Shown: piece after piece, positions 14,702 through 52,931 of the stretch
Position numbering within the stretch: position 1 is the stretch's first letter
Layout: each line of letters opens with the position of its first letter
DNA from: Chitinophaga pinensis
Lineage (GTDB): Bacteria > Bacteroidota > Bacteroidia > Chitinophagales > Chitinophagaceae
Assembly: GCA_945865295.1 (NCBI GenBank)
Contig: CAMBDE010000004.1
Coordinates: 1-59,489 of the forward strand
Length of the DNA: 59,489 nucleotides
Reading direction: 5' to 3'
Position numbers and translations under genes: made by a program
The notes under the pieces: model-generated
What the model saw: the letters and a program-made list of their open reading frames with translations, nothing else
Database searches by the model: none
What the model was told of the DNA's origin: nothing

Positions 14702-16597
14702 CTAAGTGGTAATTTTAAAAGTTGCATTTTTAGAACTATGATACACTTCTTGTACTTCTTCATTAGCTCTGGATTTTAACGTCTTTTGTAAAATTTCAAA
14801 ATTTGTATTTCTCCATGAATAATCTAAATATAATCTATTTTCTCTTTCATTTTTCTCAACATCCATAAAAATACAATTATTTGATAATTTACATAAATCA
14901 TCATCCATAAGAGCAACTACTCCTTCTAAAACAATTATATCATTAGGGCCAATTGAAATACATTTACTTTTATCAGTTTCTCTAATAAATCGATTATAAA
15001 TTGGAACATTAATTTGATGTCTTTCTATACTTTTAATTATTGGGATAAACAAAGATAATACCGCGGGTAAATTATATCTTTTTAATACTCCCTCACCTTC
15101 AACTCTATCTTTTAAAGGAAATAGCCATCCGTCTAATGATATTACATGAATATTTTTGCCTGATAATCGTAATAAGTGATTAATAATTTGAGCCACTGTG
15201 CTCTTACCGGATCTTGCAGGGCCTCCAACTAAGATTAAACGACTTTCATTTAATGAGTTTAAGATTGGGAATAATTTATTCACTAATTTATTGTAATCAA
15301 ATAAGCAAAAATCAACTGCATTTAACAAATTTGGAAAAATAAAGTCAGGTTCTATGTTATACTTGGAATCGTTACCTGCGTGACCTGTTCTTACTAAGAT
15401 TGTTTTCATCCCAGATAATTTACCAGCTTTAATGTCAGATGTAGAATCGCCAATAAACCATGAAGAAGATCTATCAATATACAATTCATTAACTGCATTA
15501 TCAATTAATCCTGTTTTAGGTTTTCTACAATTGCATTCTATTTTAAATTTTGAAACTTCACCTTCAAAACCAGACTCGGGATGATGTGGACAATAATATA
15601 TCTTGTCAATATAAGCACCCTTTAATCCCAAATCGTAATCCATTTTTTTATGTATTTCATTAAGTCCTTCTTCTGTCAAATCACCTCTCGCAATAACTGG
15701 TTGATTTGTAATACAAACTGCTAAATGACCACTTTGATTAATTTTCTTAATTGCAACAGCTACGTCATCTAATAATTCAAAATCTTCTGGTTTTTTTAAA
15801 TAATTAACTTCCTTATTAATAGTTCCGTCTCTATCTAAGAAAATTGTTGACCTTAAATTTCTAAATGAAAGTTTCTCTGGTAAAGCATAAAAAATGTCTT
15901 TTTCTACCTTATCTAAGCGATTAGGAGTTCCCATATCTTTAATATATTCTTGAGTTCTATATGAATAAATTAAATGATTTTTTTCTAAAATTGCAGGGAA
16001 GATATCTTTAGCTAAATCAAATTTGCCTTGAATAGGTATAAAATCGCTGATAAATTTTTTATTGAAAATGTATAATGCAGCATTAACTAGATTATTAAAG
16101 TATTTACCATCTTCATGCGGATATGAGTGTATTTTAACGACTTCGTTTCTTGAATTTACTTCTACTAAATCAGAATCATGTGGATGATCGTTTGGATGAA
16201 CTAGCAAGGTGGCATTAGATTCTTTTTTGTGATGATACTCAATAAACATATCTAAATCTACATCTACGTAAGTATCACCATAAAATACAATAAATTCTTC
16301 ATCCATATAATTTAATGAATCATAAAGTGCCCCAGCTGTTCCTCTTGCGTTTTCTTCTATTATATAATTCAAAGAAACACCCCATTTACTTCCATCTCCA
16401 AAATATGATGAAATTACTTCGTATTCATAATGTACAAGTAGAGAAATATTTAATAAATTAAATTTTTTACATAATAGAATTTGGTATTCCAAAACTGGCT
16501 TTCCCAATAATAAAGCCATAGGTTTAGGTATATTACCTGTCCTAGATTTTAATCTTGAGCCCATTCCTCCGGCTAAAATTGCAACTTTACTAATCAT
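14702..16597 (-). CDS. trifunctional fusion: nucleotidyltransferase (HddC-like) + HAD-IIIA heptose bisphosphatase (GmhB-like) + P-loop kinase (uridine kinase-like)
   Basis: ILAGGMGSRLKSRTGNIPKPM; IFLDRDGTINKEVNYL...CNCRKPKTGLID; LVGGPARSGKSTVAQ. Confidence 0.88.
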   Translation of the reverse strand: MISKVAILAGGMGSRLKSRTGNIPKPMALLLGKPVLEYQILLCKKFNLLNISLLVHYEYEVISSYFGDGSKWGVSLNYIIEENARGTAGALYDSLNYMDEEFIVFYGDTYVDVDLDMFIEYHHKKESNATLLVHPNDHPHDSDLVEVNSRNEVVKIHSYPHEDGKYFNNLVNAALYIFNKKFISDFIPIQGKFDLAKDIFPAILEKNHLIYSYRTQEYIKDMGTPNRLDKVEKDIFYALPEKLSFRNLRSTIFLDRDGTINKEVNYLKKPEDFELLDDVAVAIKKINQSGHLAVCITNQPVIARGDLTEEGLNEIHKKMDYDLGLKGAYIDKIYYCPHHPESGFEGEVSKFKIECNCRKPKTGLIDNAVNELYIDRSSSWFIGDSTSDIKAGKLSGMKTILVRTGHAGNDSKYNIEPDFIFPNLLNAVDFCLFDYNKLVNKLFPILNSLNESRLILVGGPARSGKSTVAQIINHLLRLSGKNIHVISLDGWLFPLKDRVEGEGVLKRYNLPAVLSLFIPIIKSIERHQINVPIYNRFIRETDKSKCISIGPNDIIVLEGVVALMDDDLCKLSNNCIFMDVEKNERENRLYLDYSWRNTNFEILQKTLKSRANEEVQEVYHSSKNATFKITT

Positions 16598-23467: not shown

Positions 23468-25009
23468 CTAAGCATTTAATATTTTTATTAACTTATTATT
23501 AAGTACATTGATATCAAGAGGAGAAAATCTTTGTATACATATTTCTATTGCTAAATTATGATTATTAGAAAACATTTTAAAACCTGATTGAATATCTTTA
23601 TTTATAACTTCAACTAATTCTTGAGGTCTATCTAGTATTATTCTCCACTCTTTAAGATTGAAAAGGGGGTCTATTGTTAATTCACCATTAATCCGTAAAT
23701 AAAAAGGCCTCAAACCACAGGATATTGCTTTAAATATAGCTGTGGTTCCTCTATACAAAACCCAGTTAGATAACTCGATATCTTTCTCTAGGGATTGTTC
23801 TGATAATATGATGTTTCTAGGTAAATTAATAAAAAGATTTTCTCTAGATTTTAAATCTCTAAAACTTACACCAGGATGAAGGCGCCATATAAAATATATA
23901 TGTGGATGTAATAATGCACACTCATAGGAAAATCTGAATAATATAAGACATTCGGTTGTTATTCCTTCAGGGATAACTAAACAAAAAAATGGGCTGTTTT
24001 TATTTAATTTTCTTTTATTTGAGTTGATTAAACCTCTATTTGAGCCTAGTACTTCAATCTCGGTTTTAGCAAAAATTTTCAGTTTACTAAGTTCTTCTTT
24101 GCATTCAATTCCCGATGTAAAAATTATATCAGGGTTATATATGGGCTTTAATTGTAACTTTATCGCATTAGATAATCTAAATGTACCAGTATGCTGATAA
24201 GAAATACAAACAATATTTGGATTTATAGATCTTGCTGCGGCCATTAAAATTCTCTCATAAGCATGACCTTCATATAGTGAAACTATAGTTTTAGGATTAG
24301 ATACAAGAACAAGATTTCTAACTTGTTCATACAATCTTAACATCGCTTGGGTTTCTCCATTAAAAATTACATTAGAAGCATAATTATAGATATCTTTCGT
24401 AAAATTATCTGAGTTTAAATTTGAATTAGATTTTAATTTTCGGGATTCTTTATGTAACAATTTACGAATGGAGAGCTCCTTAAAAAAAGTTAGTGTATTA
24501 GTGAAATACACTTTAGGGTACGAGGTCGAAATAATTGATTTTTGAATGTTTGTGTCTTTGAAATCCAAATTGTTAATGTAGCCTAACAGAACACTGTAAT
24601 TGCTTTTAATTAACTCTGATGGAATATTAACAAAATAAAAATCATCAATATTTGAAAGCTGAGAAGAATTTAAAATATGTGAAATAAATAGACAATCCAC
24701 TTCAGGCTGTATTACATCATCTGTATACCAATACGAATTATGTAAAAAAAATGAGCGATATATTTGTCTTACCCATGTTAAGTAATTCTTTATATACTTA
24801 ATTAAATTTTCATATATCTCGTAAATAAACGCTTTTTTATGAAATATATCTTTATATCGTTCTAAAAAAACAGGATGCTCTCTTATTAGATACAACCACG
24901 GTATAGCAACAACTACCAATGTAGACATCTTTGAATTCAATATATTATTGAATTCTCTACAAAGTCGATTATATTGATTTTGATTTATAAGTTTGAAATT
25001 AGAATTCAT
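23468..25009 (-). CDS. surface carbohydrate biosynthesis / GT-B-like protein
   Basis: LYEGHAYERILMAAARSINPNIVCISYQHTGTFRLS... Confidence 0.55.
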   Translation of the reverse strand: MNSNFKLINQNQYNRLCREFNNILNSKMSTLVVVAIPWLYLIREHPVFLERYKDIFHKKAFIYEIYENLIKYIKNYLTWVRQIYRSFFLHNSYWYTDDVIQPEVDCLFISHILNSSQLSNIDDFYFVNIPSELIKSNYSVLLGYINNLDFKDTNIQKSIISTSYPKVYFTNTLTFFKELSIRKLLHKESRKLKSNSNLNSDNFTKDIYNYASNVIFNGETQAMLRLYEQVRNLVLVSNPKTIVSLYEGHAYERILMAAARSINPNIVCISYQHTGTFRLSNAIKLQLKPIYNPDIIFTSGIECKEELSKLKIFAKTEIEVLGSNRGLINSNKRKLNKNSPFFCLVIPEGITTECLILFRFSYECALLHPHIYFIWRLHPGVSFRDLKSRENLFINLPRNIILSEQSLEKDIELSNWVLYRGTTAIFKAISCGLRPFYLRINGELTIDPLFNLKEWRIILDRPQELVEVINKDIQSGFKMFSNNHNLAIEICIQRFSPLDINVLNNKLIKILNA

Positions 25010-25646
25010 TTAAAAATGCAATTACTGTACACGGCGAACCATCAGCATCTTTAATCAATAATGGTGAAATTATTATTCTACGAGGAGAATCATTTATTTG
25101 AGTAAGATTCATATCTTCTAGGATAAGAATATCATTTTCTATCAAAAATGAAATATGTGCCTTTTTCCCCTCAAATCTATCCAACTTGCTTGTAAGTGAA
25201 ATTAAATCAAATCCGAAAACGCGCAAATATGGAAAAGTTGACCTTAATAGATTTCCGTATGAAGCGGGTATAACAGGCTGTGATTGCCAATATGATTCAT
25301 GTCCTCTTTTAGTTCCGAATCCAGTTTTAAGAATTAAAATTTCAATATCCGAAGGAAGACCTTTTATCATATTAGGTAATTCATCTATTGAACATGATAA
25401 AAACCCAATTTTTTTAAATACCCAAAATTCACTTGAATAATCGGAACAAGTGTTTCCGTTGTTAGAGAAATGACGAGGAAAGTCTATGTGGGTACCAGAA
25501 TGATTTGGCAAATTAATAACACATTCGTTTGTGGTATCTCCATTTTCAATCACCTTAATTCGATTAAAACTTATTAAATCTGATTTACCGCCATAAACTG
25601 GTGTTAGTAAATCGTAATAGTATGATAAAAAAACAATTTTATCCAT
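24999..25646 (-). CDS. cyclase family protein (kynurenine formamidase-like)
   Basis: NHSGTHIDFPRHF metal-binding motif. Confidence 0.85.
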   Translation of the reverse strand: MDKIVFLSYYYDLLTPVYGGKSDLISFNRIKVIENGDTTNECVINLPNHSGTHIDFPRHFSNNGNTCSDYSSEFWVFKKIGFLSCSIDELPNMIKGLPSDIEILILKTGFGTKRGHESYWQSQPVIPASYGNLLRSTFPYLRVFGFDLISLTSKLDRFEGKKAHISFLIENDILILEDMNLTQINDSPRRIIISPLLIKDADGSPCTVIAFLNEF

Positions 25647-25649
25647 TTA

Positions 25650-26402
25650 TTATAATAATATCTTAGACACTTTGTTAAAAATATTCGAGTTAGATGCCAA
25701 TACTTCATACTGAAATGGTTTACTCATTTTTTTTAACTCATACAACCCTCCAGCAGCTTCTACGATTGCTAGACCTGCCGCAATATCCCATAAATAAATT
25801 CCTTTTTCATAGTAAACATCGAATATTCCTTCAGCTACTAAACATAACATCAAACTTGCGCATCCCAATGCTCTAATTTTTTTAAATCTCTGTACGTTAT
25901 TTACAAACGATTGAAGGTCACTTGAATTATAAGATGCTCCTGAAGGGAATCCTGTGACAAGTACAGAATTACAAATCTCAGATTCTTCAGAAACTTTAAT
26001 CTCTAAATTATTTTTACTCGCCTTATTAATAAGGTTAGTACTAAAAAAAATATTTTTAGAAATATCTAAAACGAAACCATGAACGGGAATAAAATTTTCA
26101 ACAAATGCTACGGAAATTGAATAAAATGGAAAATTTCTAGTGAAATTAAGAGTGCCATCTAACGGATCTAAAATCCAACCACAACTTATATTCTCATGTA
26201 ACTTTGACTCTTCTGATAGTACAGGAAATTCGGTTTTTTTAAGAGCATCAAAAATAAATTCATTCATTCTATGATCTACAACAGTTTTAATGTCTTTAAA
26301 TTCGTTAGTTAAAACTCCTGGATTACTTAAATGCACCAATGCAATTTCTCTTGCGTCTTCAAGTATTTGTTTAACTAAATCAATATGTTTTTGAGTTAAC
26401 AT
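25650..26402 (-). CDS. inositol monophosphatase family protein
   Basis: SEES...GWILDPLDGTLNFTRNFPFYSISVAF; YLWDIAAGLAIVEAAGG. Confidence 0.92.
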   Translation of the reverse strand: MLTQKHIDLVKQILEDAREIALVHLSNPGVLTNEFKDIKTVVDHRMNEFIFDALKKTEFPVLSEESKLHENISCGWILDPLDGTLNFTRNFPFYSISVAFVENFIPVHGFVLDISKNIFFSTNLINKASKNNLEIKVSEESEICNSVLVTGFPSGASYNSSDLQSFVNNVQRFKKIRALGCASLMLCLVAEGIFDVYYEKGIYLWDIAAGLAIVEAAGGLYELKKMSKPFQYEVLASNSNIFNKVSKILL

Positions 26403-26416
26403 TTATATTGAATAAA

Positions 26417-27466
26417 TTAATTTAAAATATTATTTGGATTTGATATATTATATTTATTACGCCAAATCTCATCACTAAAATATATATTGTATACCAACTT
26501 CATTGTTTCTAAAGCATCATTACTAGTCCCTGATAAAATAGGCTTATTATCAATTATCGCTGAAGCAAATTCAAAAATCTCATCTTTCCATGAATTATCT
26601 TCTAAAAATCTAGTTGTTGTTTGCTCCATTTGTCCATTATCAGATTCCTCATTAATTGTCCCAATAATAATTTTTTCCTCTCCATAGCTTTTTGAACCTG
26701 ATAAAATACCATGAAGTTCAATATATCCTTTTGTAAGAGAAATTTCAAGACTAAACTTATGTTGCCATTGTGTCGCAGAAGAATGAATCATTGCTACTCT
26801 CCCTATGCTATCTTTCATAATTGCAAAAGCATTATCTTCGACATCATGATTCCAAAAATCATTTGAAACAAAGCTTTTAACCTCAACAAAATATCCGCAA
26901 AATAACCTCATTAGGTCTAGCATATGAATACCTTGGTCTAATAAGATTCCTCCACCCGCCAACTTTCGACTAGATCGCCATCCCCCTGAAAATGGGATGA
27001 CACGACTTTTCCCATATACACCTCGTAAGTTAACTATATCTCCTAATTCTCCAGATAGAATTATTTTCAACGCCAACTTTACAGAATCATGATATCTATG
27101 ATTAAATCCATATTTCAACTTCAAAGATGGATTCGCTTTTTCAACGCTAATGACTTTCTGTATTTCTTCTACATTCATCCCAGGAGGCTTTTCACAAAAT
27201 ACATGTAAATTTTTATTCAATCCCGCCATTGTAACTTCAGCAGCAATATTATTTGTAAGACAAACAAATAATATATCTAATTCTTCGCAATTTAATAAAT
27301 CTTTATAATTGCTATAACTTGATACTTCTGATAAATTGTTGTTCTCAACTTCAAAATTTTGATCGCATATAGCTACTACTTTTAATTTGGGGTGTGAGTC
27401 AATAAATAAATGTCTCCTTTTTCCAACTATTCCATATCCAGCTATTCCAACTCTTAATTTATCCAT
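26417..27466 (-). CDS. Gfo/Idh/MocA family oxidoreductase
   Basis: RVGIAGYGIVGKRR; HVFCEKPPG; GGILLDQGIHMLDLMR. Confidence 0.92.
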   Translation of the reverse strand: MDKLRVGIAGYGIVGKRRHLFIDSHPKLKVVAICDQNFEVENNNLSEVSSYSNYKDLLNCEELDILFVCLTNNIAAEVTMAGLNKNLHVFCEKPPGMNVEEIQKVISVEKANPSLKLKYGFNHRYHDSVKLALKIILSGELGDIVNLRGVYGKSRVIPFSGGWRSSRKLAGGGILLDQGIHMLDLMRLFCGYFVEVKSFVSNDFWNHDVEDNAFAIMKDSIGRVAMIHSSATQWQHKFSLEISLTKGYIELHGILSGSKSYGEEKIIIGTINEESDNGQMEQTTTRFLEDNSWKDEIFEFASAIIDNKPILSGTSNDALETMKLVYNIYFSDEIWRNKYNISNPNNILN

Positions 27467-27471
27467 AAAAT

Positions 27472-28401
27472 TTATTTAGTTGTTTGTTTTTTAAAATTAA
27501 GTAAATGATCAAGCGCTGACATCCCCATCGCAACTACAGCTTCATAAGAATTCCCTCCTATATGAGGAGTACATATAAAATTATTTTGCTTTAATAAGTC
27601 CAAATCATTTGGAGGCTCTTCATTATATACGTCCAAAGCTGCTCCAGATATTAGACCTTTTTCAAGTGCCTCCTTCAAATCAATTTCATTAATTATACCA
27701 CCTCTCGCAGTATTTATAATGATAGAAGATGGCTTCATTATTTCAAAAACAGAACTATTAATAAGATTTTTAGTTTCACTTGTTAGGGGAGTATGAATAG
27801 AGATGATATCTGCCTCTCTAAACATATAGTCTTTAGAAACTTGTTGCAAATCAAAACTTTCATTAATATTTTCTAAGTTAATTATATCATTAACAATTAT
27901 CTTACATCCAAATGGTTCCAATAATTTTACAAGTTCTTTCCCTATATTCCCAAAGCCTATAATTCCGACTGTTTTACCTGATAATTGAGTTCCTCCATTC
28001 TTATTCCACAATCCATCCTTTAATTGATTCGATGTAACAAAAAGATTTCGAGATAATGCTATCATAAAACCTATAGCCATTTCTGCTACCGATCGCTTGT
28101 TTACACCTCCTGTCCACCCAACCAAAATATTTCTTTTTATACAAGCATCAATATCAATGTTATCAATACCTACTCCAAACTTAGCAATCATTTTTAGATT
28201 GGGAAGTTTCGATAGTAAATCATCATCAATTTTTTCGAGTCCAACTACGATAGCTTCTGCATCTGAGAAATATTCAATTGTTTCTGGATAATTTATTCTA
28301 GTACCTTTTGAATTAAATTCTGCATCTGGAAATTCCTCAAGCAATCTCTCTACAAGAAAATTATTTTTTGAAAATGCAATATTTGCTACTTTTACCTTCA
28401 T
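27472..28401 (-). CDS. D-isomer-specific 2-hydroxyacid dehydrogenase (SerA-like)
   Basis: GKTVGIIGFGNIGKELVKLL; INTARGGIINEIDL; CTPHIGGNS. Confidence 0.93.
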   Translation of the reverse strand: MKVKVANIAFSKNNFLVERLLEEFPDAEFNSKGTRINYPETIEYFSDAEAIVVGLEKIDDDLLSKLPNLKMIAKFGVGIDNIDIDACIKRNILVGWTGGVNKRSVAEMAIGFMIALSRNLFVTSNQLKDGLWNKNGGTQLSGKTVGIIGFGNIGKELVKLLEPFGCKIIVNDIINLENINESFDLQQVSKDYMFREADIISIHTPLTSETKNLINSSVFEIMKPSSIIINTARGGIINEIDLKEALEKGLISGAALDVYNEEPPNDLDLLKQNNFICTPHIGGNSYEAVVAMGMSALDHLLNFKKQTTK

Positions 28402-28403
28402 AG

Positions 28404-29177
28404 TTAAACATTCTTATATTTTGGAAAAACTTTGTCATGTTTCATTTTTAATTCTACTCTGTTTAAATCATCGGGGATATCAATTGCATCAACCTCAAAA
28501 GTCGTTTCAACCATATTTATAGTAATCCCATTTTCTAAAAAACGATTCATATCTACTGATTCAATAATTTCAAGTTCTGAAGGAGCAAGTTCGACAAAAC
28601 GTAATAACGCTTGGCGAGTAAATCCAATAAGACCTAATTGACGATAATAGTTAATGTTGCCGTTAAATTTTTCCGATGATGGAATTGGCTCTCTGGACAT
28701 ATACAAGGCATTTCCTTCAATAGAATTAACGACCTTAACATTATTCGAATTATTGATTTCATCTTTAGATTTCAGAGATACCATTAGATTTGAAACTTGA
28801 CTTTTTCCTTCAATTAAGGGAGCAGCAACCTGTTTAATCATCTCCGGGTCTATTAAAGGCTCGTCACCTTGAATCATAATAATAATATCATATTTAACAC
28901 CAGGATTGGCCCTTTCTATTTCTATAAGAGCTTCCGCCGTTCTTTCGGTAGCACGTTCGTGCTTATCTGAAGTCATAACTGCTGTGCCCCCAATTGAATT
29001 TATATAGTCTAAAATTGAAAAATCACAAGTTGCAACAATCGTTTCATCCAATAAATCACACAATTTGCTCCTTAAATAGCAATGTTCAACCATTGGCATT
29101 CCCAAAATCTTTACCATTGGCTTGTTTGGAAATCTACTTGCAGCCATCCTAGCTGGAATTACCCCGAGAATTTTCAT
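28404..29177 (-). CDS. KdsB-like CMP-ulosonic acid cytidylyltransferase
   Basis: VIPARMAASRFPNKPMVKILGMPMVEHCY; IMIQGDEPLIDPEMI. Confidence 0.88.
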   Translation of the reverse strand: MKILGVIPARMAASRFPNKPMVKILGMPMVEHCYLRSKLCDLLDETIVATCDFSILDYINSIGGTAVMTSDKHERATERTAEALIEIERANPGVKYDIIIMIQGDEPLIDPEMIKQVAAPLIEGKSQVSNLMVSLKSKDEINNSNNVKVVNSIEGNALYMSREPIPSSEKFNGNINYYRQLGLIGFTRQALLRFVELAPSELEIIESVDMNRFLENGITINMVETTFEVDAIDIPDDLNRVELKMKHDKVFPKYKNV

Positions 29178-29914
29178 GTTTTTCGTAATTTTAATTGATT
29201 TCTAATCATTTGTCCTAAAAAATTTAAATCAAAACTAAATGCTATAAAATTATACCCATTATTAATCTTATCATTAACTAAATTAAAATCAGGTGGAACT
29301 ATATGGAAACCAATAAGCTTATCATACCTTTTGGCTATAATTTCATATCTTTTAATTAACTCAATAACTTCAGGGTCATCCCAACAACCAGGTTTTCCGA
29401 TTGAGCCAGATAAATCATAAGGTCCAATAAAAGTGCCATCTATACCTTCTAGATTAAGTATTAAGTCTAGTTCATCAATTGCCTTAAAGTGTTCGATCTG
29501 AACAATTAATTTTATATTATTTAATGTTTCGTTTTTATATTTATTAAAACTAAAGCCATAACCCTGAGCTCGAGCCAGTCCAACTCCCCTAGTGCCGATT
29601 GGAGGGTATTTTACAGCATTTAAAGCTTTTAATGCCTCTTGTGATGAATTAACTGAAGGTACAATGATTCCATCAGGTCCTGCATCAAGAACTCGTTTAA
29701 TTATAAGCGGATTATTTTCACCAACTCTTACATAAGCTTTCAAACCTTTTCCCTGGATTGCTATAATTAAATTTAACATTTCAGAATAATCGATTGTAGT
29801 ATGTTCCAGATCAATACACAACCAATCGAAACCTGAATCTGCCATTACTTCAACAATAGAAGAATGAGCAATTGTAATCCATGACCCAATTGTACAATTA
29901 TTAAAATTATTCAT
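29174..29914 (-). CDS. HpcH/HpaI family aldolase
   Basis: GFDWLCIDLEHTTIDYSEML...VRVGENNPLIIKRVLDAGPDGIIVPSVNS...GPYDLSGSIG. Confidence 0.92.
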   Translation of the reverse strand: MNNFNNCTIGSWITIAHSSIVEVMADSGFDWLCIDLEHTTIDYSEMLNLIIAIQGKGLKAYVRVGENNPLIIKRVLDAGPDGIIVPSVNSSQEALKALNAVKYPPIGTRGVGLARAQGYGFSFNKYKNETLNNIKLIVQIEHFKAIDELDLILNLEGIDGTFIGPYDLSGSIGKPGCWDDPEVIELIKRYEIIAKRYDKLIGFHIVPPDFNLVNDKINNGYNFIAFSFDLNFLGQMIRNQLKLRKT

Positions 29915-29939: not shown

Positions 29940-30731
29940 CTATCGAATCCAAATTTGATTTGGAGATCCATCTCTTCCTTTTAAATATTCAGAATTAAAT
30001 GACATTTTTTTTAAGCCAGATTTTTCCAACACATCTTCACAAGTTAATTTTCTAATTTCCCAATTTTCCGATATTTCAATTAATAACCCTTTAATTCTAC
30101 ACAAAACATCAGTAGCACCCTGTAATATTAATAATTCAATACCATCAACATCAATTTTCACATAATCAGGAAAATCTAGTTTTAAATTTTGAACAGCCTC
30201 ATCTAAAGAGATTGAAAAAATTGGATATTTATATATAATTTTCATTTCTTCGCCATTTTCACCATATGTTTTATCAAATGTTGACAAGGCCCCACCCCAA
30301 TTTTCAGAACTCATATTCAAAATGCCCTTCCCCATAATATTATTAACTGCAAAAGGCATTATTGTAATATCATTATTTAAGTTATTCAAGAAAATATTTC
30401 TTGAAAGCACCTCTAAATTAAAGACTGAAGGCTCAAAAGCAAAAACCTGACAATTACGAGATTTTGCAGCATGTATTGAATACAACCCAATATTAGCACC
30501 AATATCCCAAAAAATTGAACCTTCTAAAAACGAATCAATCCAAAATAATGTTTCAGGTTCTTTCGAACTAAAGGTTTTAGCTCTATATCTACAAAGCTGA
30601 TTGGGCGCCGAAAAATTATATTCTATACCATTCCTCTCTATCAAAATAGTTTTTTTACGAACATAGTTCACAAAATTTTCGCTAAAAAAAAACATTTTGT
30701 AAAGTGATTTTAAAATTATTTTAAATTTCAT
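29940..30731 (-). CDS. FkbM family methyltransferase
   Basis: FWDIGANIGLYSIHAAKS...VFAFEPSVFNLEVLSRN...VKIDVDGIELLILQGA. Confidence 0.92.
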   Translation of the reverse strand: MKFKIILKSLYKMFFFSENFVNYVRKKTILIERNGIEYNFSAPNQLCRYRAKTFSSKEPETLFWIDSFLEGSIFWDIGANIGLYSIHAAKSRNCQVFAFEPSVFNLEVLSRNIFLNNLNNDITIMPFAVNNIMGKGILNMSSENWGGALSTFDKTYGENGEEMKIIYKYPIFSISLDEAVQNLKLDFPDYVKIDVDGIELLILQGATDVLCRIKGLLIEISENWEIRKLTCEDVLEKSGLKKMSFNSEYLKGRDGSPNQIWIR

Positions 30732-31981
30732 GATTTACTATTTTTAAATTGGTTATTAATTTCAGAACTCAAAAAGTTTACGATTCTTTCAGAAGATTTT
30801 ACAGGTAAAAAACAATCTAAAAAGTCATTGTACATTTTAGAATAATTTGACTCTTTAGATAAGAGATCTATAAATTCGTTTATATTACTAAACTTATTGC
30901 AATAATCATCAATCCAGGTTTTCGATAATGATGAATCTGTAAAGTATACACTTTTAAAATATTCATCTTGTCTTTCAAAAGACTTTAAAAAAGAATTTGG
31001 TAAAAATAAAAAAGATGGTTTTTGTAAGGCAATTGTTTTAAGTATGGATGTGCTCAGAAAAGTAATTACAAAATCAACTTTTTTAGCTAAAATCTCTATG
31101 GATATATCTGAAATTTCAAAAAAACCAGAATTTGTAATTAATAAATCATCGAAATAATTTCGACAATCGTTAGGATGGTATTTCAATATTACTTTATAAC
31201 CATTTAGGATTAAATCAGAAATAATTTTTTTGCTCTCTTCTATTATTTTAAAATCTTTATATATCGTATTATTTGAGTTTACCATTATAAACAAAATAAT
31301 CATCTTATTTTGTTTACATCTGTATGATTCGGGTAATACAATATCATCTAAATAATCTACTTCAAGGCTCGGACAACCAAGAAATTTTACATTTGGATGA
31401 GCATTTGAGTTAAAAATTTCTTGATATTCAGTCTTTGAGCTCGTAAAAAAAAGATCAAATGGATAAATTATTTTCTGATACCAATGAGGCCATACTACCA
31501 ATGGGGTCCCTATAAATAGTGCCTTGCTTAATCGAGCTTTGTTATAAAAACATGCCTCAAGTTTATCAATGGGTATACCAGGATAATTACTAGCTATAAT
31601 AATGTCGTATCTATCACATATTTTTGAAATAGAATCAACATATATATTAAACATAAAAGTATTTAATATATACGCAAGTAATTGCAAAATTCTACGAATA
31701 ATCGTATCTATATAAAAGCAACTAAACTGTTTATATAATTTATAAATTTTAACAAATGACTTAAAAGGATATAAATCATCCCTATAAATTATATTGTAAT
31801 TTCTATATGTTGCAATTAATTCTAGTTTTTTTGTAAATACTGTCTCAAAACTATAAATATTCATTAAAAAAAAGGTAACAGGATAACCTTTATTTCTAAA
31901 ACCCAAAGCTATTGGCATTTTCAAATCTAAATCAAGAGCAGTTCTGCTATTTGAAAAAATTAAAATTGATTTAATTGCCAA
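30728..31981 (-). CDS. glycosyltransferase-like (GT-B/CDP-glycerol-transferase-like) protein
   Basis: VILKYHPNDCRNYF...FVITFLSTSILKTIALQKPSFLF. Confidence 0.5.
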   Translation of the reverse strand: MAIKSILIFSNSRTALDLDLKMPIALGFRNKGYPVTFFLMNIYSFETVFTKKLELIATYRNYNIIYRDDLYPFKSFVKIYKLYKQFSCFYIDTIIRRILQLLAYILNTFMFNIYVDSISKICDRYDIIIASNYPGIPIDKLEACFYNKARLSKALFIGTPLVVWPHWYQKIIYPFDLFFTSSKTEYQEIFNSNAHPNVKFLGCPSLEVDYLDDIVLPESYRCKQNKMIILFIMVNSNNTIYKDFKIIEESKKIISDLILNGYKVILKYHPNDCRNYFDDLLITNSGFFEISDISIEILAKKVDFVITFLSTSILKTIALQKPSFLFLPNSFLKSFERQDEYFKSVYFTDSSLSKTWIDDYCNKFSNINEFIDLLSKESNYSKMYNDFLDCFLPVKSSERIVNFLSSEINNQFKNSKS

Positions 31982-32007: not shown

Positions 32008-33918
32008 TTAACTATGAAGTACTTCATTTTCAATTATACTTCGAAAACGAACAATTGAATTATTATCTTGAAAATTATCAAATTCGTTAATAATATTTTT
32101 CCAATCTCCAAGATCTCGAAACTCATTAAAACCAAATCTAAATTGTTTAATTGCATAAACAATACTTTCTATTGAATCAAATTCAATCATTGATTTAGAA
32201 TATAAGTTGTCAAAATTAGACTTTATTTTATCCTTATTTAATAAAACGCATCTCTTTCCTGAAATAGCCGCTTCTAGTCCTGCTGTGGCTCCATATTTAT
32301 GAGATATACAAATATCCGAAATTAAAGCAGCCTCAGTCGGCAAAATATCATTCCTTGTGTACATAAGTCCTTCATTAAGCTCAATGTACCTACCTGTAGC
32401 AAGAGCCAATTTAAACAGATGATTATTCGAATACCAATTTGAAGGAGAATATTTTGTAAACTGAGACTTAACAACTAGACCAAAAGTTTTGTCATCTAGT
32501 ATAAGATTGATTAAAACTAGTAATTCAGATAAATGTTCTTCATGTTTTACGTGACCCCATTTATTATTGTCAACTCGTTCATCAAAATAACATATTGTAA
32601 ATTTAACTCCTTTATTTTGTAACTTACAGCGATATAATTCTACTCTTGAAACAATAATATTTTTAACGTAACTAAATAGATACCCTGTAGATATATATTG
32701 TTTTGAATTTATGTTGCCATAGTTAAAAATAGGCTTATATAAATCAGAAAATAACAAAAACTTATCTACTTTAATTGTCATTAAAGTAGAATAAAAGGGC
32801 AGATTAGAGTATTGATAAGAAATAGTCTTAACACCCAATTTACCTGAAATTAGTGATGAAGCATCAGAATAAGGGTTATGAGGTTCCCCAATTAAAATAA
32901 CCTTTACATTTAAACTATGAATTAAATTTTCTAAAAAATCAGCTCTATTATTCAAATCATTTAAAACAAATAATGAGTGCCTTTCATAACTATTATAAAT
33001 AAATAAAAGCTTTAGTCTTGAAAGAGAAAATACTTTAATGATTTGTTTTAAAAATGCAATTATATATTTCTTTAAAGAAAAACCATATGGAATATCATAA
33101 ACATTAAATTTCTTTAGTTCTCCAAAATCTAATGCTTTATCCATTATGCTCTTCCGATTCTTAGGTTTCCCAATTTTACTTAAAATAAATGTACGAAAAC
33201 CAGGATTAATTTTTTCCCTGTCAACCCAATGAGGTTGACCTCTTAAGCTAAGATCTGAACGTAAGGTATCGGTTTGAAAAGTTAATACAGAAGGTAACCC
33301 ATCATTAATTATACTATTTTCCTTTCTCCATTTTTTAAACTCTAGAAATCTTAACAAGATTGATCCAAGATCAGTATATAAAACACTTATTAATTGAAAA
33401 AAAGTGAAATCAAAACGTGAATAGTAATTAAAATTTATTTCAGTAAATTTTTTATTAATAAAAATAGTTTCAAATTTTAATGGTTTTTTTATGATTAAAT
33501 GCGCTTTGCAATTTACCGTTAATGCCTCAACAACCATTGCTCTAAGTACCAGATAATACATTTCAGAATAAATTTGCTTTGAAAGAAATATTCTAAACAC
33601 ATCAATGTCATAGTTTGGCTTAAAAACACTAACGATTGATTTCGATTTTATTAAATTCTCAGTCGCATCGAAAGATAAAATAGATGATAGGCGAAGAGAC
33701 GCAATTGTAATTGATTCTCCATCAAGACTTTTTAAGTTTCCAGCAAAAAAATTTACCTCATCAATTTTATACCCTAAAAAAATTAATATGAACTTTAAAA
33801 AACGTCTTTTAAATGTATCATTATTCTCAAGAGTAAGGATTCTCTTTTCATAATTGCTTATCAATAAATGATAACAGGAAGAAAATGAGAGCTCATCTAA
33901 AAACAATTGTTTATTCAT
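32008..33918 (-). CDS. surface carbohydrate biosynthesis / GT-B-like protein
   Basis: LVVKSQFTKY...ISHKYGATAGLEAAISGKRCVLLNKDKI. Confidence 0.5.
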   Translation of the reverse strand: MNKQLFLDELSFSSCYHLLISNYEKRILTLENNDTFKRRFLKFILIFLGYKIDEVNFFAGNLKSLDGESITIASLRLSSILSFDATENLIKSKSIVSVFKPNYDIDVFRIFLSKQIYSEMYYLVLRAMVVEALTVNCKAHLIIKKPLKFETIFINKKFTEINFNYYSRFDFTFFQLISVLYTDLGSILLRFLEFKKWRKENSIINDGLPSVLTFQTDTLRSDLSLRGQPHWVDREKINPGFRTFILSKIGKPKNRKSIMDKALDFGELKKFNVYDIPYGFSLKKYIIAFLKQIIKVFSLSRLKLLFIYNSYERHSLFVLNDLNNRADFLENLIHSLNVKVILIGEPHNPYSDASSLISGKLGVKTISYQYSNLPFYSTLMTIKVDKFLLFSDLYKPIFNYGNINSKQYISTGYLFSYVKNIIVSRVELYRCKLQNKGVKFTICYFDERVDNNKWGHVKHEEHLSELLVLINLILDDKTFGLVVKSQFTKYSPSNWYSNNHLFKLALATGRYIELNEGLMYTRNDILPTEAALISDICISHKYGATAGLEAAISGKRCVLLNKDKIKSNFDNLYSKSMIEFDSIESIVYAIKQFRFGFNEFRDLGDWKNIINEFDNFQDNNSIVRFRSIIENEVLHS

Positions 33919-33939: not shown

Positions 33940-34563
33940 CTAAAATATATAATTAATATCATCAAGATATATAAGGCTCGGATTGTTGAAAGAGAGAAAA
34001 TGAATTTTATTATGTTTTGCAGCTTCATAATCGTTTATGGAATCCCCTATTAAAATACATTGTCCTATTTCAAAGTTATTGTGATTTAATATATTTGAAA
34101 CTAATTCATTTTTTGGAGTTGGGGACCCATAAATGCCCTTAAAGTATATTGACAACAAAAGTTCATCACATAAAAACCTTAATTCGTTTTGATCTGAACC
34201 TGAGACTATATACATTTTAATTTTACCATAATACAATTTTACAAAATCGAGAGTCTGTTGAATTAACAATTCTCGATTCAATAATAATTCTCTCATAATT
34301 ATAGAAAAGGAATCCGATAATTTTAAAATATCGTAATCTGAAATTTTTTCTCTTCTAATGTTTTCAAAAAAATGTCGAAATTTAACGTAACGTGATAATC
34401 CTCCATTTTCTCTATGAAAAGATAAAAGATCTTCGACCTCCTTTTTTGGAAAATCCTTTAAAACTTTTTGAAATCCTATATCACGAATCGAATTAGAGTC
34501 TAATAATACACCGTCAAAATCCCAAAATATAACTTTATACTTACTTAAGCTCATTATTTTCAA
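33940..34563 (-). CDS. HAD family phosphatase
   Basis: IFWDFDGVLLDSNSIRD; MYIVSGSDQNEL; CILIGDSINDYEAA. Confidence 0.9.
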   Translation of the reverse strand: MKIMSLSKYKVIFWDFDGVLLDSNSIRDIGFQKVLKDFPKKEVEDLLSFHRENGGLSRYVKFRHFFENIRREKISDYDILKLSDSFSIIMRELLLNRELLIQQTLDFVKLYYGKIKMYIVSGSDQNELRFLCDELLLSIYFKGIYGSPTPKNELVSNILNHNNFEIGQCILIGDSINDYEAAKHNKIHFLSFNNPSLIYLDDINYIF

Positions 34564-35275
34564 TTATTTTCATAACTTCTTTTACATCATCAGCTGTATC
34601 AACTGCAATAGAATCTGTTGATAATTGAATCATTCTCACATCAAATCCTAATTCCATAAATCTTAATATTTCTATATCTTCAATACTTTCTAATAAAGTT
34701 TTTTCCTTTGCTCTACTATACCTAATTAAAGCTTCTTTGGGAAATGCATATATACAAATTTGACGCCAAGACTTAACGAATAAACTATTCTTGTTACCAG
34801 GAATTGGACTTCGTGACATATAGAGCAAACGACCATCTGGTCGAAATACAACTTTAGGTATAGAAATGCTATTGTAATGTTTTTCATTATCTATTGGCGC
34901 ATAACCATTAATAATTTCTCCATTATATTTTTTGATATTTTCTACAACTTTAAGAATATCAGCCGGATTTATTAGAGGTTCATCCCCTTGCACATTGATA
35001 TAATAATCCGCCTCATTAAATAGTGAAAATTCAGCCACTCGATCCGTGCCAGTCAAGCAATCACTTGATGTCATCACAACTTGAATATTTAGATTTTCAC
35101 AATGTTTATAAATTTGCTCATCGTCAGTTGCAACAAATATAAATTTAGAGTCAACTGCTTTGGCACATTTATCATAAGTCCTTTGGATCATTGATTTTCC
35201 CAAAAAATCAATTAAAGGCTTTCCCGGCAATCTTGATGATTGAAACCTAGCAGGTATTACTAATAAAATTTTCAT
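34541..35275 (-). CDS. KdsB-like CMP-ulosonic acid cytidylyltransferase (second)
   Basis: VIPARFQSSRLPGKPLIDFLGKSMIQRTY; INVQGDEPLINPADI. Confidence 0.92.
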   Translation of the reverse strand: MKILLVIPARFQSSRLPGKPLIDFLGKSMIQRTYDKCAKAVDSKFIFVATDDEQIYKHCENLNIQVVMTSSDCLTGTDRVAEFSLFNEADYYINVQGDEPLINPADILKVVENIKKYNGEIINGYAPIDNEKHYNSISIPKVVFRPDGRLLYMSRSPIPGNKNSLFVKSWRQICIYAFPKEALIRYSRAKEKTLLESIEDIEILRFMELGFDVRMIQLSTDSIAVDTADDVKEVMKIIENNELK

Positions 35276-35276
35276 A

Positions 35277-36821
35277 TTAAATTAATGAATAAACTGATTG
35301 AAGTTCCAAAATTTTATATTTTGTTGGTGTAATACTCACAGTCCTTATATCGAATTTATTTAAAGCGTTAAATAAGTATTCATTTTCAAAAATCAAATCT
35401 TGCTCTTTTTCTCCAATCAAATCACCCGCATAACCGTCATAACCAGCAAGATAGATATTTGTTACACCAATAGATTTCGCCGTCTGTAATGCTAATGCAG
35501 TATGTGAATCTTGAAATTTTTCAGTGAAATCTACTGTTCTTAATTCAAAAATGTTTTCAGAAATCATACTAGGAACATACGTTCCCATAATACGCGGAAA
35601 AGGTGGCAGGATAAACTTTGAATGAGCTAATTTTAGGAACTTAAAAGATTTTTCTAACCTATGCCCTTCATTCCCAACTAAACAAAAGTATTGTTTATTT
35701 GATATTTCGTTAAACTGTACTGCATTTTTTGAACTAGCATGGATTACAATCATTTCAGGGTTTAAATTAATCAAACTTCGAATTGCACTAATATGATTAA
35801 TTATTGAAGATCCACCTCCAATAATTAAAGCTTTATCACATTTTATTTCATAAGAAAAATCAATAATTGGTAGTTTTTTATTATCTAGAATATCGTTGGA
35901 TATGTTTGAGAGAGCTCTAATTATGCTATTAAAAGAATAATACCGCTTGCCAACCCATTCCATAACATCCTTTTGAGGTAGCGAATTAGCTCCAGAAACC
36001 ATATACGGCAGATTTGTGCCCCATTCATGCTTTTTTTGCAATTCAAAAAATTCCTCCACTATAAAACTAAGAGCATTGAAATTTAGATTCATATTTAACT
36101 TTCCTCGAGCATTTAATGCAGTTAACAAAAGCTCGGTTTTTAAATTCCCTGCACCTCTACCCATTCCCGTAATTGTAGAATCCACCATATCAACACCACA
36201 ATCTATTGCAGTTAGAGAATTTATTAATCCAAGTTCTAAGTTATTATGACCGTGAAATCCGACCTTGACGTTAGTTTTTGATTTGACTATTTCCAATATT
36301 TTCCTAACATCTTCTGGATATACACTTCCATAAGAATCAACAATACTAAAATAATCAACTTTGCCATCTAATTTAGTGAATTGATCAAACAATCCTTCGT
36401 GATTAACCCATGTAGACATATACATTAAATTAAATCCAACTTCGAATCCCATATTTTTTATATTCTCAGCAAGTATTAATCCTCGACCAAAATTTACAGG
36501 GTCAACGGCAATTCGAATCATATCTATCATCCCAATACATGGATTTAATAATCGATTTAAATCTGAATGAATTACGTCCTTTTCGTTTAGCATAATTGCA
36601 ATTTTTTTTATGCAATTTTTTTTAACATTTTCTAAAACATATTCAGGACAATAAAAAAACTCGCCAAGATAATTGGACATAGTTTTGGAACGATAGCCAA
36701 TTTCTATGTATTCAATTGGTAATTGATTAATAGATTCAAAATATGATTTGACCAACTTAGAATCAAAATCCCAATTTGTATAATACCCACCATCACGAAG
36801 TGTGCAATCTAGAATTTTCAT
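35277..36821 (-). CDS. DRE-TIM/HMGL-like aldolase with C-terminal accessory domain
   Basis: LDCTLRDGGYYTNWDFD; VGFHGHNNLELGLINSLTAIDCGVDMVDSTITGMGRGAGN; second domain begins KALIIGGGSSI. Confidence 0.88.
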   Translation of the reverse strand: MKILDCTLRDGGYYTNWDFDSKLVKSYFESINQLPIEYIEIGYRSKTMSNYLGEFFYCPEYVLENVKKNCIKKIAIMLNEKDVIHSDLNRLLNPCIGMIDMIRIAVDPVNFGRGLILAENIKNMGFEVGFNLMYMSTWVNHEGLFDQFTKLDGKVDYFSIVDSYGSVYPEDVRKILEIVKSKTNVKVGFHGHNNLELGLINSLTAIDCGVDMVDSTITGMGRGAGNLKTELLLTALNARGKLNMNLNFNALSFIVEEFFELQKKHEWGTNLPYMVSGANSLPQKDVMEWVGKRYYSFNSIIRALSNISNDILDNKKLPIIDFSYEIKCDKALIIGGGSSIINHISAIRSLINLNPEMIVIHASSKNAVQFNEISNKQYFCLVGNEGHRLEKSFKFLKLAHSKFILPPFPRIMGTYVPSMISENIFELRTVDFTEKFQDSHTALALQTAKSIGVTNIYLAGYDGYAGDLIGEKEQDLIFENEYLFNALNKFDIRTVSITPTKYKILELQSVYSLI

Positions 36822-40297: not shown

Positions 40298-41362
40298 CTA
40301 TTTATCAAAAATCAATTCCCAAGTAAGTGGTGTACCTTTCAATACATCTCGATTCAATGTGAGCCCAATAACTTGATCAAAATATTTAGGTGGTAAACCT
40401 AATCCTGGCCTAACGCATCGTACATTTTCTGGACTCAAAGTTTCACCTCGTTTAACATTTGACGAAATATATAAAGATCTACGAAATACTAATGATTTTT
40501 TTTCTGCATCAGTAGCACCATAACGAACTACCCCTAATGCCTGCCAAGCGCGCTCTGTTTCTGTAACCAATGCTTGCATCTCTGACGGCTCCAGCGAAAA
40601 AGCACTATCCACACCACCATCTGCTCTGCTCAAAGTGAAATGTTTTTCAACGATTGTAGCTCCGAGTGTTACGGCTGCAACAGAAACTCCAGTACCCATG
40701 GTGTGGTCTGAAAGTCCTATTTGACAATTAAATAATTCCCGCATGTGTGGAATTGTAGATATGTTACTATTTTCTGGTAATGCAGGATAAGTACTTGTAC
40801 ATTTTAACAAAACCAAATTTTTACAACCAGCTTCTCTAGCAGCAGTAATAGCTTCATGCAATTCTGCTATAGTTGCCATACCAGTAGATATTATCAAAGG
40901 CTTACCTGTAGCAGCTACCTTGCGAATTAATGGAAGATGAATGTTTTCAAAAGAAGCTATTTTATAAGCAGGAACATTTAAATCCTCCAAAAAATCTACA
41001 GCAGTTTCATCAAATGGACTACTGAAACAAACCATTCCAAGTTCTTTTGCTCTTTTCATGATTGGAGCATGCCATTCCCAAGGAGTATAGGCTTCGCCAT
41101 AAAGCTTATGCAGACTTTTGCCATTCCACAAACTATTTTGATCCTGTATTTTGAACTCATTCTCATGAACATCCAATGTAATAGTATCGGCGGTGTATGT
41201 TTGGAGTTTTATAGCCTGAGCACCAGTCTTAGCAGCGGCTTCAACTATGGCCAATGCCCTATCCAATGATTGATTATGATTACCACTCATTTCTGCAATG
41301 ATAAATGGACGAACGTTATTCCCTATTTCAAAGGGTCCTATGTTAAAATTATTAATCGACAT
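40298..41362 (-). CDS. pseI: pseudaminic acid synthase (NeuB family)
   Basis: PFIIAEMSGNHNQSLDRAL...AIKLQTYTADT...GLSDHTMG...VEKHFTLSRADGGVDSAFSL; C-terminal SAF-like RRSLYISSNVKRGE. Confidence 0.92.
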   Translation of the reverse strand: MSINNFNIGPFEIGNNVRPFIIAEMSGNHNQSLDRALAIVEAAAKTGAQAIKLQTYTADTITLDVHENEFKIQDQNSLWNGKSLHKLYGEAYTPWEWHAPIMKRAKELGMVCFSSPFDETAVDFLEDLNVPAYKIASFENIHLPLIRKVAATGKPLIISTGMATIAELHEAITAAREAGCKNLVLLKCTSTYPALPENSNISTIPHMRELFNCQIGLSDHTMGTGVSVAAVTLGATIVEKHFTLSRADGGVDSAFSLEPSEMQALVTETERAWQALGVVRYGATDAEKKSLVFRRSLYISSNVKRGETLSPENVRCVRPGLGLPPKYFDQVIGLTLNRDVLKGTPLTWELIFDK

Positions 41363-47166: not shown

Positions 47167-48186
47167 TTAAAATTCTACTGGGCTATTTGAAGAAATTCGT
47201 TTGGTGGCAATTTTACCTTCTACTTCGCTTATTTCAGTTAGAGCCTGAGTAGAAGATGTACGCTTCAATGCTAAATTATCGGAACTAATAACATTGCCTT
47301 GGCAAATTGGATCAATTGTCACAACATGTCTTCTAATCATTTTTCTATACCCGAATTCGCTTTCTGACATACCAAAATCAGCGTCATTGTTAACAAATCC
47401 TATAGCTGTGCTACAATTGTGAATAAAATTTACATATTCCAAAAATTCATCGGGATTTAGCGCTGATTCATGGTCTTCCATTTTCATGTTTTTTGCCAAA
47501 GTCAAATGTTTTTCCAAAACCTCTGCTCCAAAACCAATAGCCATTGCTCCAAGTCCAAGGTGAATATTAGTTTCGGGATTAACATGATCAGCAAACCCAA
47601 TCTTTAAAGAAGCATGAGACTTAGAAAAGATATCTCTTGCTAATTTAATTCGATTAATATGATTATCAGAATTAGCCGTCGGATAAGACTGAAATCCGAA
47701 TAATAAAATTACTTCCTTATTCTTCAAAATATCAAGTGCAACTAGTATTTCATTTTGAAACGCACCACCAGCACCAAGTATAACTTGCTGTATCTTGGTA
47801 TTTGCAACCATATTAAGTAACCTTTTGTTGGCAATATCAGTCCCATGAATTTTTACTGCCTCTACCCCTATTTTTTCAGCTAATTGAATGCTTTTTTCTC
47901 CAAAGATATCTAAATGTAAGGCTAAATTATTTTCAATTGCTAAATTTGAAATTTTTTCCCAAACTTCTTCTGGCATCTCCAATGACTTGAATAAATTATA
48001 ATATTTATAGTCAGGAGTTGCTAATTCGTCCGCATATACTAATTGAAATTTTACTGCATCGGCTCCAGAAGCAGCTGCAGCTTTGACGAACAATTCAGAA
48101 TAAATTGAATTCCCTTCAAATCCTTGAGCGATTTCAGCAATTATTTTTATTTTATTATTTTTCATATTTAATTCAACTAATTCCAA
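47167..48186 (-). CDS. NeuB-family synthase (second)
   Basis: KIIAEIAQGFEGNSIYSELFVKAAAASGADAVKFQLVYADEL...GFADHVNPE...LEKHLTL. Confidence 0.85.
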   Translation of the reverse strand: MELVELNMKNNKIKIIAEIAQGFEGNSIYSELFVKAAAASGADAVKFQLVYADELATPDYKYYNLFKSLEMPEEVWEKISNLAIENNLALHLDIFGEKSIQLAEKIGVEAVKIHGTDIANKRLLNMVANTKIQQVILGAGGAFQNEILVALDILKNKEVILLFGFQSYPTANSDNHINRIKLARDIFSKSHASLKIGFADHVNPETNIHLGLGAMAIGFGAEVLEKHLTLAKNMKMEDHESALNPDEFLEYVNFIHNCSTAIGFVNNDADFGMSESEFGYRKMIRRHVVTIDPICQGNVISSDNLALKRTSSTQALTEISEVEGKIATKRISSNSPVEF

Positions 48187-52156: not shown

Positions 52157-52783
52157 TTATAATTTAAAAGATGAAATATTCATATTTTGAAAATCTTCCC
52201 TGTCCCATTCAAAAATTTCCATGGATTCATCCAAAATCAAATGCAGAAATATTTGATGAATACATTCAACCATTCCATAAGTTTTCATAGGGACATAAAT
52301 TGAATAATCAGCAAGTGATATTGATTTATTGTCTTTTTTTAGACCAGACAATGCTAAAGATCTTATCTGATTTTCTTTACAATAATTTAATACGCTAACA
52401 ATATTAGGACTATTACCACTTGAACTAATAGTAATCACAAGGTCATCATTTGTAACTCCTTCGATTTTTAAGAATTCTAACATGGCGTTCTCGTAAGAGT
52501 AATCATTGGACAAGGCAGTTAATAAAGCACTGTCGCTTAGTGATCTAGATAAAATTTTGCCATTTTTAGAGAAATCTAATGCCATATGGTTTGCAAAAGC
52601 AGCACTTGCACCATTACCAAAAAAATAGATTTTACTTTTAGTTTCCCTAAGCTTTATAAGTGCATGTTTAATTGTTTCAAAAAACAATTCAGGTTCAGAT
52701 ACTTGCTGATTTGCATAGTATAAAGATTCTTCCAATCCCTGACTAATTGATTTAAAATAGTTAGAATAATATTTATTTACCAT
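52157..52783 (-). CDS. gmhA: SIS-domain sedoheptulose-7-phosphate isomerase-like (start MVNKYY)
   Basis: IYFFGNGASAAFANHMALDFSKNGK; ITISSSGNSPNIVSVL. Confidence 0.85.
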   Translation of the reverse strand: MVNKYYSNYFKSISQGLEESLYYANQQVSEPELFFETIKHALIKLRETKSKIYFFGNGASAAFANHMALDFSKNGKILSRSLSDSALLTALSNDYSYENAMLEFLKIEGVTNDDLVITISSSGNSPNIVSVLNYCKENQIRSLALSGLKKDNKSISLADYSIYVPMKTYGMVECIHQIFLHLILDESMEIFEWDREDFQNMNISSFKL

Positions 52784-52931
52784 ATGATTTTCCTTTGTTA
52801 ATTTGAGAAATAATGCGCACAAAACTGCGCACACTTTAGCTATATTCCAACTTTTTCTGGTTACATATAATTAAGTATATAAAAAATGATTATTACGTTA
52901 TTAATGATTTACGATTAACTGTAAATAAACA

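Follow-up and report, generated by a model that had tools for sequence, protein, structure and literature searches.

A candidate pathway to CMP-activated ulosonic acids built on an HpcH/HpaI-family aldolase in a surface-polysaccharide locus of Chitinophaga pinensis

The well-known ulosonic acids that are activated with cytidine monophosphate (CMP), namely 3-deoxy-D-manno-oct-2-ulosonic acid (Kdo) and the sialic, pseudaminic, and legionaminic acids, are built by synthases that depend on phosphoenolpyruvate (PEP). Enzymes of the HpcH/HpaI family reversibly form 2-keto-3-deoxy sugar acids and can run in the direction of synthesis (PMC8560999). A block of six genes in which such an aldolase adjoins a KdsB-like cytidylyltransferase was analysed in a DNA stretch of 59,489 nucleotides from Chitinophaga pinensis (assembly GCA_945865295.1, contig CAMBDE010000004.1); this whole stretch is referred to as the window. 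Judged from gene content and conservation, the block is likely to be a dedicated route to a CMP-activated ulosonic acid, in which pyruvate and a sugar-derived acceptor would be joined to a 2-keto-3-deoxy acid that is then activated with CMP. The six genes are as follows (lengths in amino acids, aa):

29174..29914, minus strand: HpcH/HpaI-family class II pyruvate aldolase, 246 aa, proposed to form the ulosonic acid (PF03328, E=7e-32)
28404..29177, minus strand: KdsB-like cytidylyltransferase, 257 aa, proposed CMP-ulosonate synthetase with an altered sugar pocket (PF02348)
27472..28401, minus strand: SerA-like D-2-hydroxyacid dehydrogenase, 309 aa (PF02826, E=2e-54; PF00389)
26417..27466, minus strand: Gfo/Idh/MocA sugar dehydrogenase, 349 aa, of a type-B module (PF01408/PF22725)
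25650..26402, minus strand: sugar phosphatase of the inositol monophosphatase (IMPase) family, 250 aa (PF00459, E=9e-43)
24999..25646, minus strand: cyclase/kynurenine-formamidase-like metal hydrolase, 215 aa, proposed lactonase (PF04199)

The block (24999-29914) is co-directional and tightly packed, with gaps of 2-14 bases, and the aldolase stop at 29174 and the KdsB-like start at 29177 produce a 4-base ATGA overlap. All six proteins scored above the curated cut-offs of the Pfam families given above, and their catalytic residues are intact. A preliminary description of the window, made from its letters alone, had reported this six-gene run and its overlap, and both were borne out by the coordinates and Pfam. 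Its proposal of a CMP-ulosonic acid pathway that uses an HpcH aldolase and lacks a NeuB or KdsA synthase was likewise supported. No PEP-dependent NeuB/KdsA synthase was found by Pfam within 24999-29914.

Relatives of the aldolase were searched for with an alignment as the query, using one genome per species and ignoring neighbouring genes, and the best 80 loci were taken; the alignment seeds came from a phylum search and the majority of them were CTP-linked (CTP, cytidine triphosphate). A cytidylyltransferase was present near the aldolase in 78 of these 80 best matches (45 of KdsB type, 32 of NeuA/PseF type, and L093, also of KdsB type), a rate that holds for this aldolase subfamily and not for all HpcH proteins. 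The two loci with no cytidylyltransferase near the aldolase were L110 and L052; the HpcH genes of L052 and L093 were located by tblastn, which also gave the KdsB partner in L093. Among the 78 linked loci, the cytidylyltransferase lay no more than three genes from the aldolase in 71 and was adjacent in 48. The 80 loci were distributed over 23 phylum-level groups and included four archaeal records. By gene neighbourhood, the linkage is not a matter of chance, because it was seen in 78/80 relatives versus 0/9 more distant or catabolic HpcH neighbourhoods. In L041, HpcH and a 2-hydroxyacid dehydrogenase occurred together and no cytidylyltransferase was detected. A set of aldolase, acylneuraminate cytidylyltransferase, phosphoglycerate dehydrogenase, and HAD genes was also seen on a 97-kb plasmid of Acuticoccus (L124:9950-13111).

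The aldolase matched PF03328 with 110.9 bits against a cut-off of 25, and its nearest solved relatives were RhmA, GarL, and HpaI. It fell far under the NCBIfam equivalog cut-offs of the same three enzymes (HpaI, 167 vs 369 bits; GarL, 150-154 vs 393-407; RhmA, 143 vs 441). The conserved active-site positions D35, E37, H38, R63, E141, and D167 were invariant or nearly so among 90 relatives; E37, H38, R63, E141, and D167 align with E47, H48, R73, E151, and D177 of AtHpaI, and the residue roles were taken from published work on HpcH aldolases (PMC8560999). This is the only HpcH gene of the source genome. In a phylogenetic tree, 52 of 53 cytidylyltransferase-linked aldolases grouped together, apart from GarL, RhmA, and HpaI, with moderate support for the root branch (Shimodaira-Hasegawa approximate likelihood ratio test, SH-aLRT, 91; no bootstrap) and two long branches of unsure placement. 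On these comparisons, the aldolase belongs to a subfamily distinct from the catabolic enzymes and is not a stray catabolic enzyme.

The KdsB-like protein scored narrowly under the TIGR00466 kdsB cut-off (154.8 bits, 154.6 in a second run, vs 155.2), a difference that is weak evidence alone. The residues for CTP and magnesium (R10, R15, K19, Q98, D100, R157, and D235) were kept in 49/49 relatives. The sugar pocket was altered: at positions 181, 185, and 210 (E. coli KdsB numbering) the relatives carried Q181 in 49/49, I185 in 46/49, and D210 in 49/49, in contrast to H, Y, and E in 30/30 ordinary KdsBs, and the protein in the window itself carries Q, I, and D. The C-terminal domain of KdsB is known to bind the sugar (PMC3149649). 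In a reciprocal search with the KdsB-like protein, the strong matches adjoined HpcH, save one at a contig end with its upstream gene out of view, and weaker matches away from HpcH had the ordinary pocket.

The cassette also occurs independently of KdsA. No KdsA above the cut-off was found in three archaeal genomes, two Syntrophomonadaceae genomes, and one actinobacterial metagenome-assembled genome that carry it; the genomes checked were mostly incomplete bins, one Syntrophomonas being an isolate. The actinobacterial cassette has a NeuA-type cytidylyltransferase, and the top KdsB-family match of the archaeal and Syntrophomonadaceae genomes was the aldolase-linked gene itself. KdsA was present in three Bacteroidota genomes with the cassette. 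Since KdsA is missing from the archaea and Syntrophomonas in which the pair occurs, Kdo made by the known route is an unlikely substrate of the KdsB-like enzyme.

Among the accessory genes, the 2-hydroxyacid dehydrogenase was the most conserved partner, its family being present in 65/80 loci and its catalytic R233, E262, and H280 invariant in 62/62 sequences. Relatives of the Gfo/Idh protein in other aldolase loci were up to 73% identical, and its EKP and DQGIHMxD motifs were found in 19/19. The IMPase carries its DPxDG and WD motifs and has relatives in 6 other aldolase loci. The HxGTHxDxPxH metal motif of the cyclase-family protein was kept in 30/30; this family occurred in 31 loci and never alongside a 6-phosphogluconolactonase-like gene (both in 0/71 loci, p=0.0007, a value that is indicative only since the loci share ancestry). 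As the two replace each other, the cyclase-family protein is suggested to be a lactonase in this setting.

Two sets of accessory genes could be distinguished. Type A comprises a short-chain dehydrogenase/reductase (SDR), a HAD phosphatase, and the 2-hydroxyacid dehydrogenase, together with the cyclase-family hydrolase or, in its place, a 6-phosphogluconolactonase that scores above the TIGR01198 cut-off. Type B comprises Gfo/Idh, a GmhA-like SIS isomerase, the 2-hydroxyacid dehydrogenase, and either an SDR with an AroB-like TIGR04425 protein or an IMPase; no locus of 71 had both IMPase and AroB-like genes, an exclusion that was not significant (p=0.58). The block of the window is of type B with IMPase and cyclase. 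The same gene families were found in L065, and L043 has the first five genes in the order of the window (FkbM, HpcH, KdsB, 2-hydroxyacid dehydrogenase, and Gfo/Idh). TIGR04425, an AroB-related putative cyclising phospholyase, accompanies the cassette at L025:1971-3074 and in other type-B loci. In three loci (L023:6182-7954, L047:11537-13297, and L049:13118-14896) the 2-hydroxyacid dehydrogenase is fused to an N-terminal cytidylyltransferase-like domain, which is degenerate, with the P-loop and QGDEP motifs missing. This fusion gives an added hint that the dehydrogenase and the cytidylyltransferase belong to one process.

We infer the direction of the aldolase, the order of the steps, and the identity of the acceptor and sugar as follows. 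The metal-dependent HpcH aldolase would form a 2-keto-3-deoxy acid from pyruvate and a sugar-derived acceptor, in place of a PEP-dependent NeuB/KdsA synthase, and the KdsB-like enzyme would couple this acid to CMP. The acceptor would most likely be supplied by the 2-hydroxyacid dehydrogenase, Gfo/Idh, cyclase-family hydrolase, and IMPase, through oxidation of a sugar phosphate to a lactone, hydrolysis to an aldonate, oxidation at C2, and dephosphorylation. An aldonate intermediate is suggested because the 2-hydroxyacid dehydrogenase and a lactonase-like enzyme are frequently present. The redox and hydrolytic genes had been described as tailoring functions of the pathway; the gene swaps make it more likely that the dehydrogenases, phosphatase, and cyclase-family protein supply the acceptor than that they tailor the product. 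In a fairly unlikely extension of this scheme, the 2-hydroxyacid dehydrogenase would yield a 2-keto aldonic acid and HpcH would add pyruvate to its ketone, giving a branched dicarboxylic 3-deoxy-ulosonic acid, which would have about ten carbons with a heptose as the starting point. To our knowledge, CMP-activated sugars of this class have no earlier description. Such a product is possible because HpcH enzymes accept ketones in vitro (PMC7610986).

Several points weigh against a dedicated aldolase-based route to a CMP-ulosonic acid. The evidence for the pathway is genomic throughout, and positions 181, 185, and 210 are placed in the Kdo pocket by way of E. coli KdsB numbering and its Kdo complex. 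The archaeal loci could be misbinned, as they derive from metagenome bins. Certain loci have no 2-hydroxyacid dehydrogenase near the aldolase, and the acceptor is not fixed by one gene set, since the supply modules and the cytidylyltransferases are each of two types. Furthermore, HpcH aldolases are reversible (PMC8560999), so that removal or recycling of a keto acid is a possible role. The aldolase might then cleave, with the CMP-activated acid coming from the dehydrogenase branch by direct C2 oxidation of an aldonate; a dehydrogenase, a lactonase, and the 2-hydroxyacid dehydrogenase alone could indeed give a 2-ulosonic acid. This was judged distinctly improbable, given that the aldolase adjoins the cytidylyltransferase in 48/78 loci and stays constant where the supply modules vary. 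KdsB and NeuA relatives, moreover, usually work on 3-deoxy acids.

Alternatively, the block may act on a small aldehyde, forming a short-chain or dicarboxylic 3-deoxy acid such as a hexulosonic or heptulosaric acid, with the Gfo, IMPase, and cyclase genes serving another sugar of the same polysaccharide. Only the acceptor would differ from the favoured scheme, the core being retained, and this possibility was given a small but real chance: characterised HpaI, GarL, and RhmA take small aldehydes, often with a carboxylate, and the locus clearly makes several sugars, but in other phyla too the aldolase is accompanied by Gfo, IMPase, cyclase, and 2-hydroxyacid dehydrogenase, and the exchange of cyclase for 6-phosphogluconolactonase tracks the aldolase set. 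It is very improbable that the KdsB-like enzyme merely activates Kdo for a Kdo-containing polysaccharide, as KpsU does, beside an aldolase cluster that is an unrelated passenger. The enzyme does belong to the KdsB family and the source genome can probably make Kdo, having two synthases of the 3-deoxy-D-arabino-heptulosonate 7-phosphate/Kdo 8-phosphate (DAHP/KDO8P) type and a canonical KdsB outside the block; however, pocket positions 181 and 210 were substituted in every case and the tie to HpcH extends across phyla. The preliminary description had named an enzyme that accepts only Kdo from the lipopolysaccharide pathway as a possible refutation. Because of the separate canonical KdsB, the altered pocket, and the presence of the pair in genomes lacking KdsA, the enzyme is, as far as genomes can tell, not simply that of the lipopolysaccharide pathway. 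The same description had raised the possibility of a catabolic aldolase with no conserved link to KdsB-like genes. An ordinary catabolic enzyme placed in a polysaccharide locus by accident is scarcely credible; the annotations of the family are mostly catabolic, but the separate subfamily and near-universal cytidylyltransferase linkage speak against it, and the transporter, dehydratase, and regulator of true catabolic loci are not nearby.

The surface-polysaccharide locus extends well beyond the block, over about 12.2-59.2 kb, and includes Wzx-like (38820), CapD-like (53645), Wzz (55667), and SLBB/Wza-like (56784) genes and glycosyltransferases. The other features considered are as follows:

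29940..30731, minus strand: FkbM-type methyltransferase, upstream of the aldolase (PF05050/TIGR01444)
23468..25009, minus strand: 513-aa protein overlapping the cyclase gene, candidate glycosyltransferase by inference only
52157..52834, minus strand: GmhA-like SIS phosphoheptose isomerase (TIGR00441, E=2e-19, below cut-off)
35277..36821, minus strand: HMGL-like (4-hydroxy-2-oxovalerate-aldolase-like) aldolase of a second trio (PF00682)
34541..35275, minus strand: second KdsB-like cytidylyltransferase, 244 aa, of the HMGL/HAD trio (PF02348)
33940..34563, minus strand: HAD-family phosphatase of the second trio (PF13419)

The non-Kdo CMP-ulosonic acid would be destined for the Wzx-type surface polysaccharide of the same locus, and the FkbM methyltransferase is a candidate for O-methylation of the product. 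The SIS gene shares its family with the SIS gene of other type-B loci and possibly supplies heptose 7-phosphate; alternatively, it may serve a GDP-heptose (GDP, guanosine diphosphate) pathway. An apparent fusion of 631 aa (14702-16597) combines nucleotidyltransferase, GmhB-like phosphatase, and uridine-kinase-like domains and adjoins a GHMP kinase at 13701, the two together being a possible GDP-heptose pathway. The 513-aa protein had no Pfam or NCBIfam match and its single-sequence AlphaFold2 model was unusable (mean pLDDT, the predicted local distance difference test, 32); L029, a further aldolase locus, encodes a relative with 39% identity. Two proteins of 417 and 636 aa (30728-31981 and 32008-33918) lie between the aldolase modules of the window; they had no meaningful Pfam or NCBIfam match and are candidate glycosyltransferases. 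No RNA family was found by the Rfam scan, and promoter- and terminator-like sites were no more frequent than chance.

The second trio (33940-36821) consists of the HMGL-like aldolase, second KdsB-like enzyme, and HAD phosphatase and is unrelated to the HpcH block. In 9 Bacteroidota genomes, the loci examined contain all three families together; in L177 and L181, relatives of the second KdsB-like enzyme with 62-64% identity have HMGL and HAD as neighbours, and the HAD is conserved beside HMGL. In L037, L039, and L176 an HpcH-family protein adjoins the trio. The pocket of the second KdsB-like protein is unlike both the ordinary and the HpcH-linked classes. Two NeuB-type synthases are also encoded in the locus (40298-41362, above the PseI cut-off, and 47167-48186) and were assigned to other gene sets. 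Because they stand beside two aldolase systems, as many as four different ulosonic acids may be produced from this one locus.

Found in 23 phylum-level groups, archaea among them, the pairing of aldolase and KdsB-like enzyme suggests that an acidic surface sugar is made and activated by an uncharacterised route. No description of an HpcH-KdsB polysaccharide pathway was found in the open-licence literature, so that one may exist elsewhere. If the proposed route is correct, it would be a widespread aldolase-based alternative in bacteria and archaea, even where Kdo synthesis is absent, and a class of acidic surface sugars would have been overlooked, with enzymes misannotated as Kdo-related ('CMP-Kdo synthetase'). 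With the Q181/I185/D210 signature, such enzymes could be recognised and reannotated simply from their sequences, and the gene set is compact enough for reconstitution in vitro to be practical.

Compared with known systems, the AroB-related TIGR04425 phospholyase occurs in the type-B version of the cassette but is absent from that of the window, which has IMPase in its stead. The catabolic HpaI, GarL, and RhmA have the fold and catalytic residues in common with the block aldolase; however, their operons contain dehydratases, transporters, and regulators, and they occupy a separate branch of the tree. The sialic, pseudaminic, and legionaminic acid pathways (NeuB/PseI-NeuA/PseF) similarly end in a CMP-activated ulosonic acid that goes into a surface glycan, and a NeuA/PseF-like cytidylyltransferase is present in some HpcH loci, but the block has no NeuB and its three-carbon unit would derive from pyruvate via HpcH rather than from PEP via NeuB. 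The Kdo pathway (KdsD-KdsA-KdsC-KdsB) resembles the proposed route in joining a sugar acceptor and a three-carbon unit to a 3-deoxy-2-ulosonic acid, in its phosphatase, and in CMP activation by the KdsB family; the cassette differs in having a pyruvate aldolase in place of the PEP synthase KdsA, a substituted KdsB sugar pocket, and extra dehydrogenases and a hydrolase.

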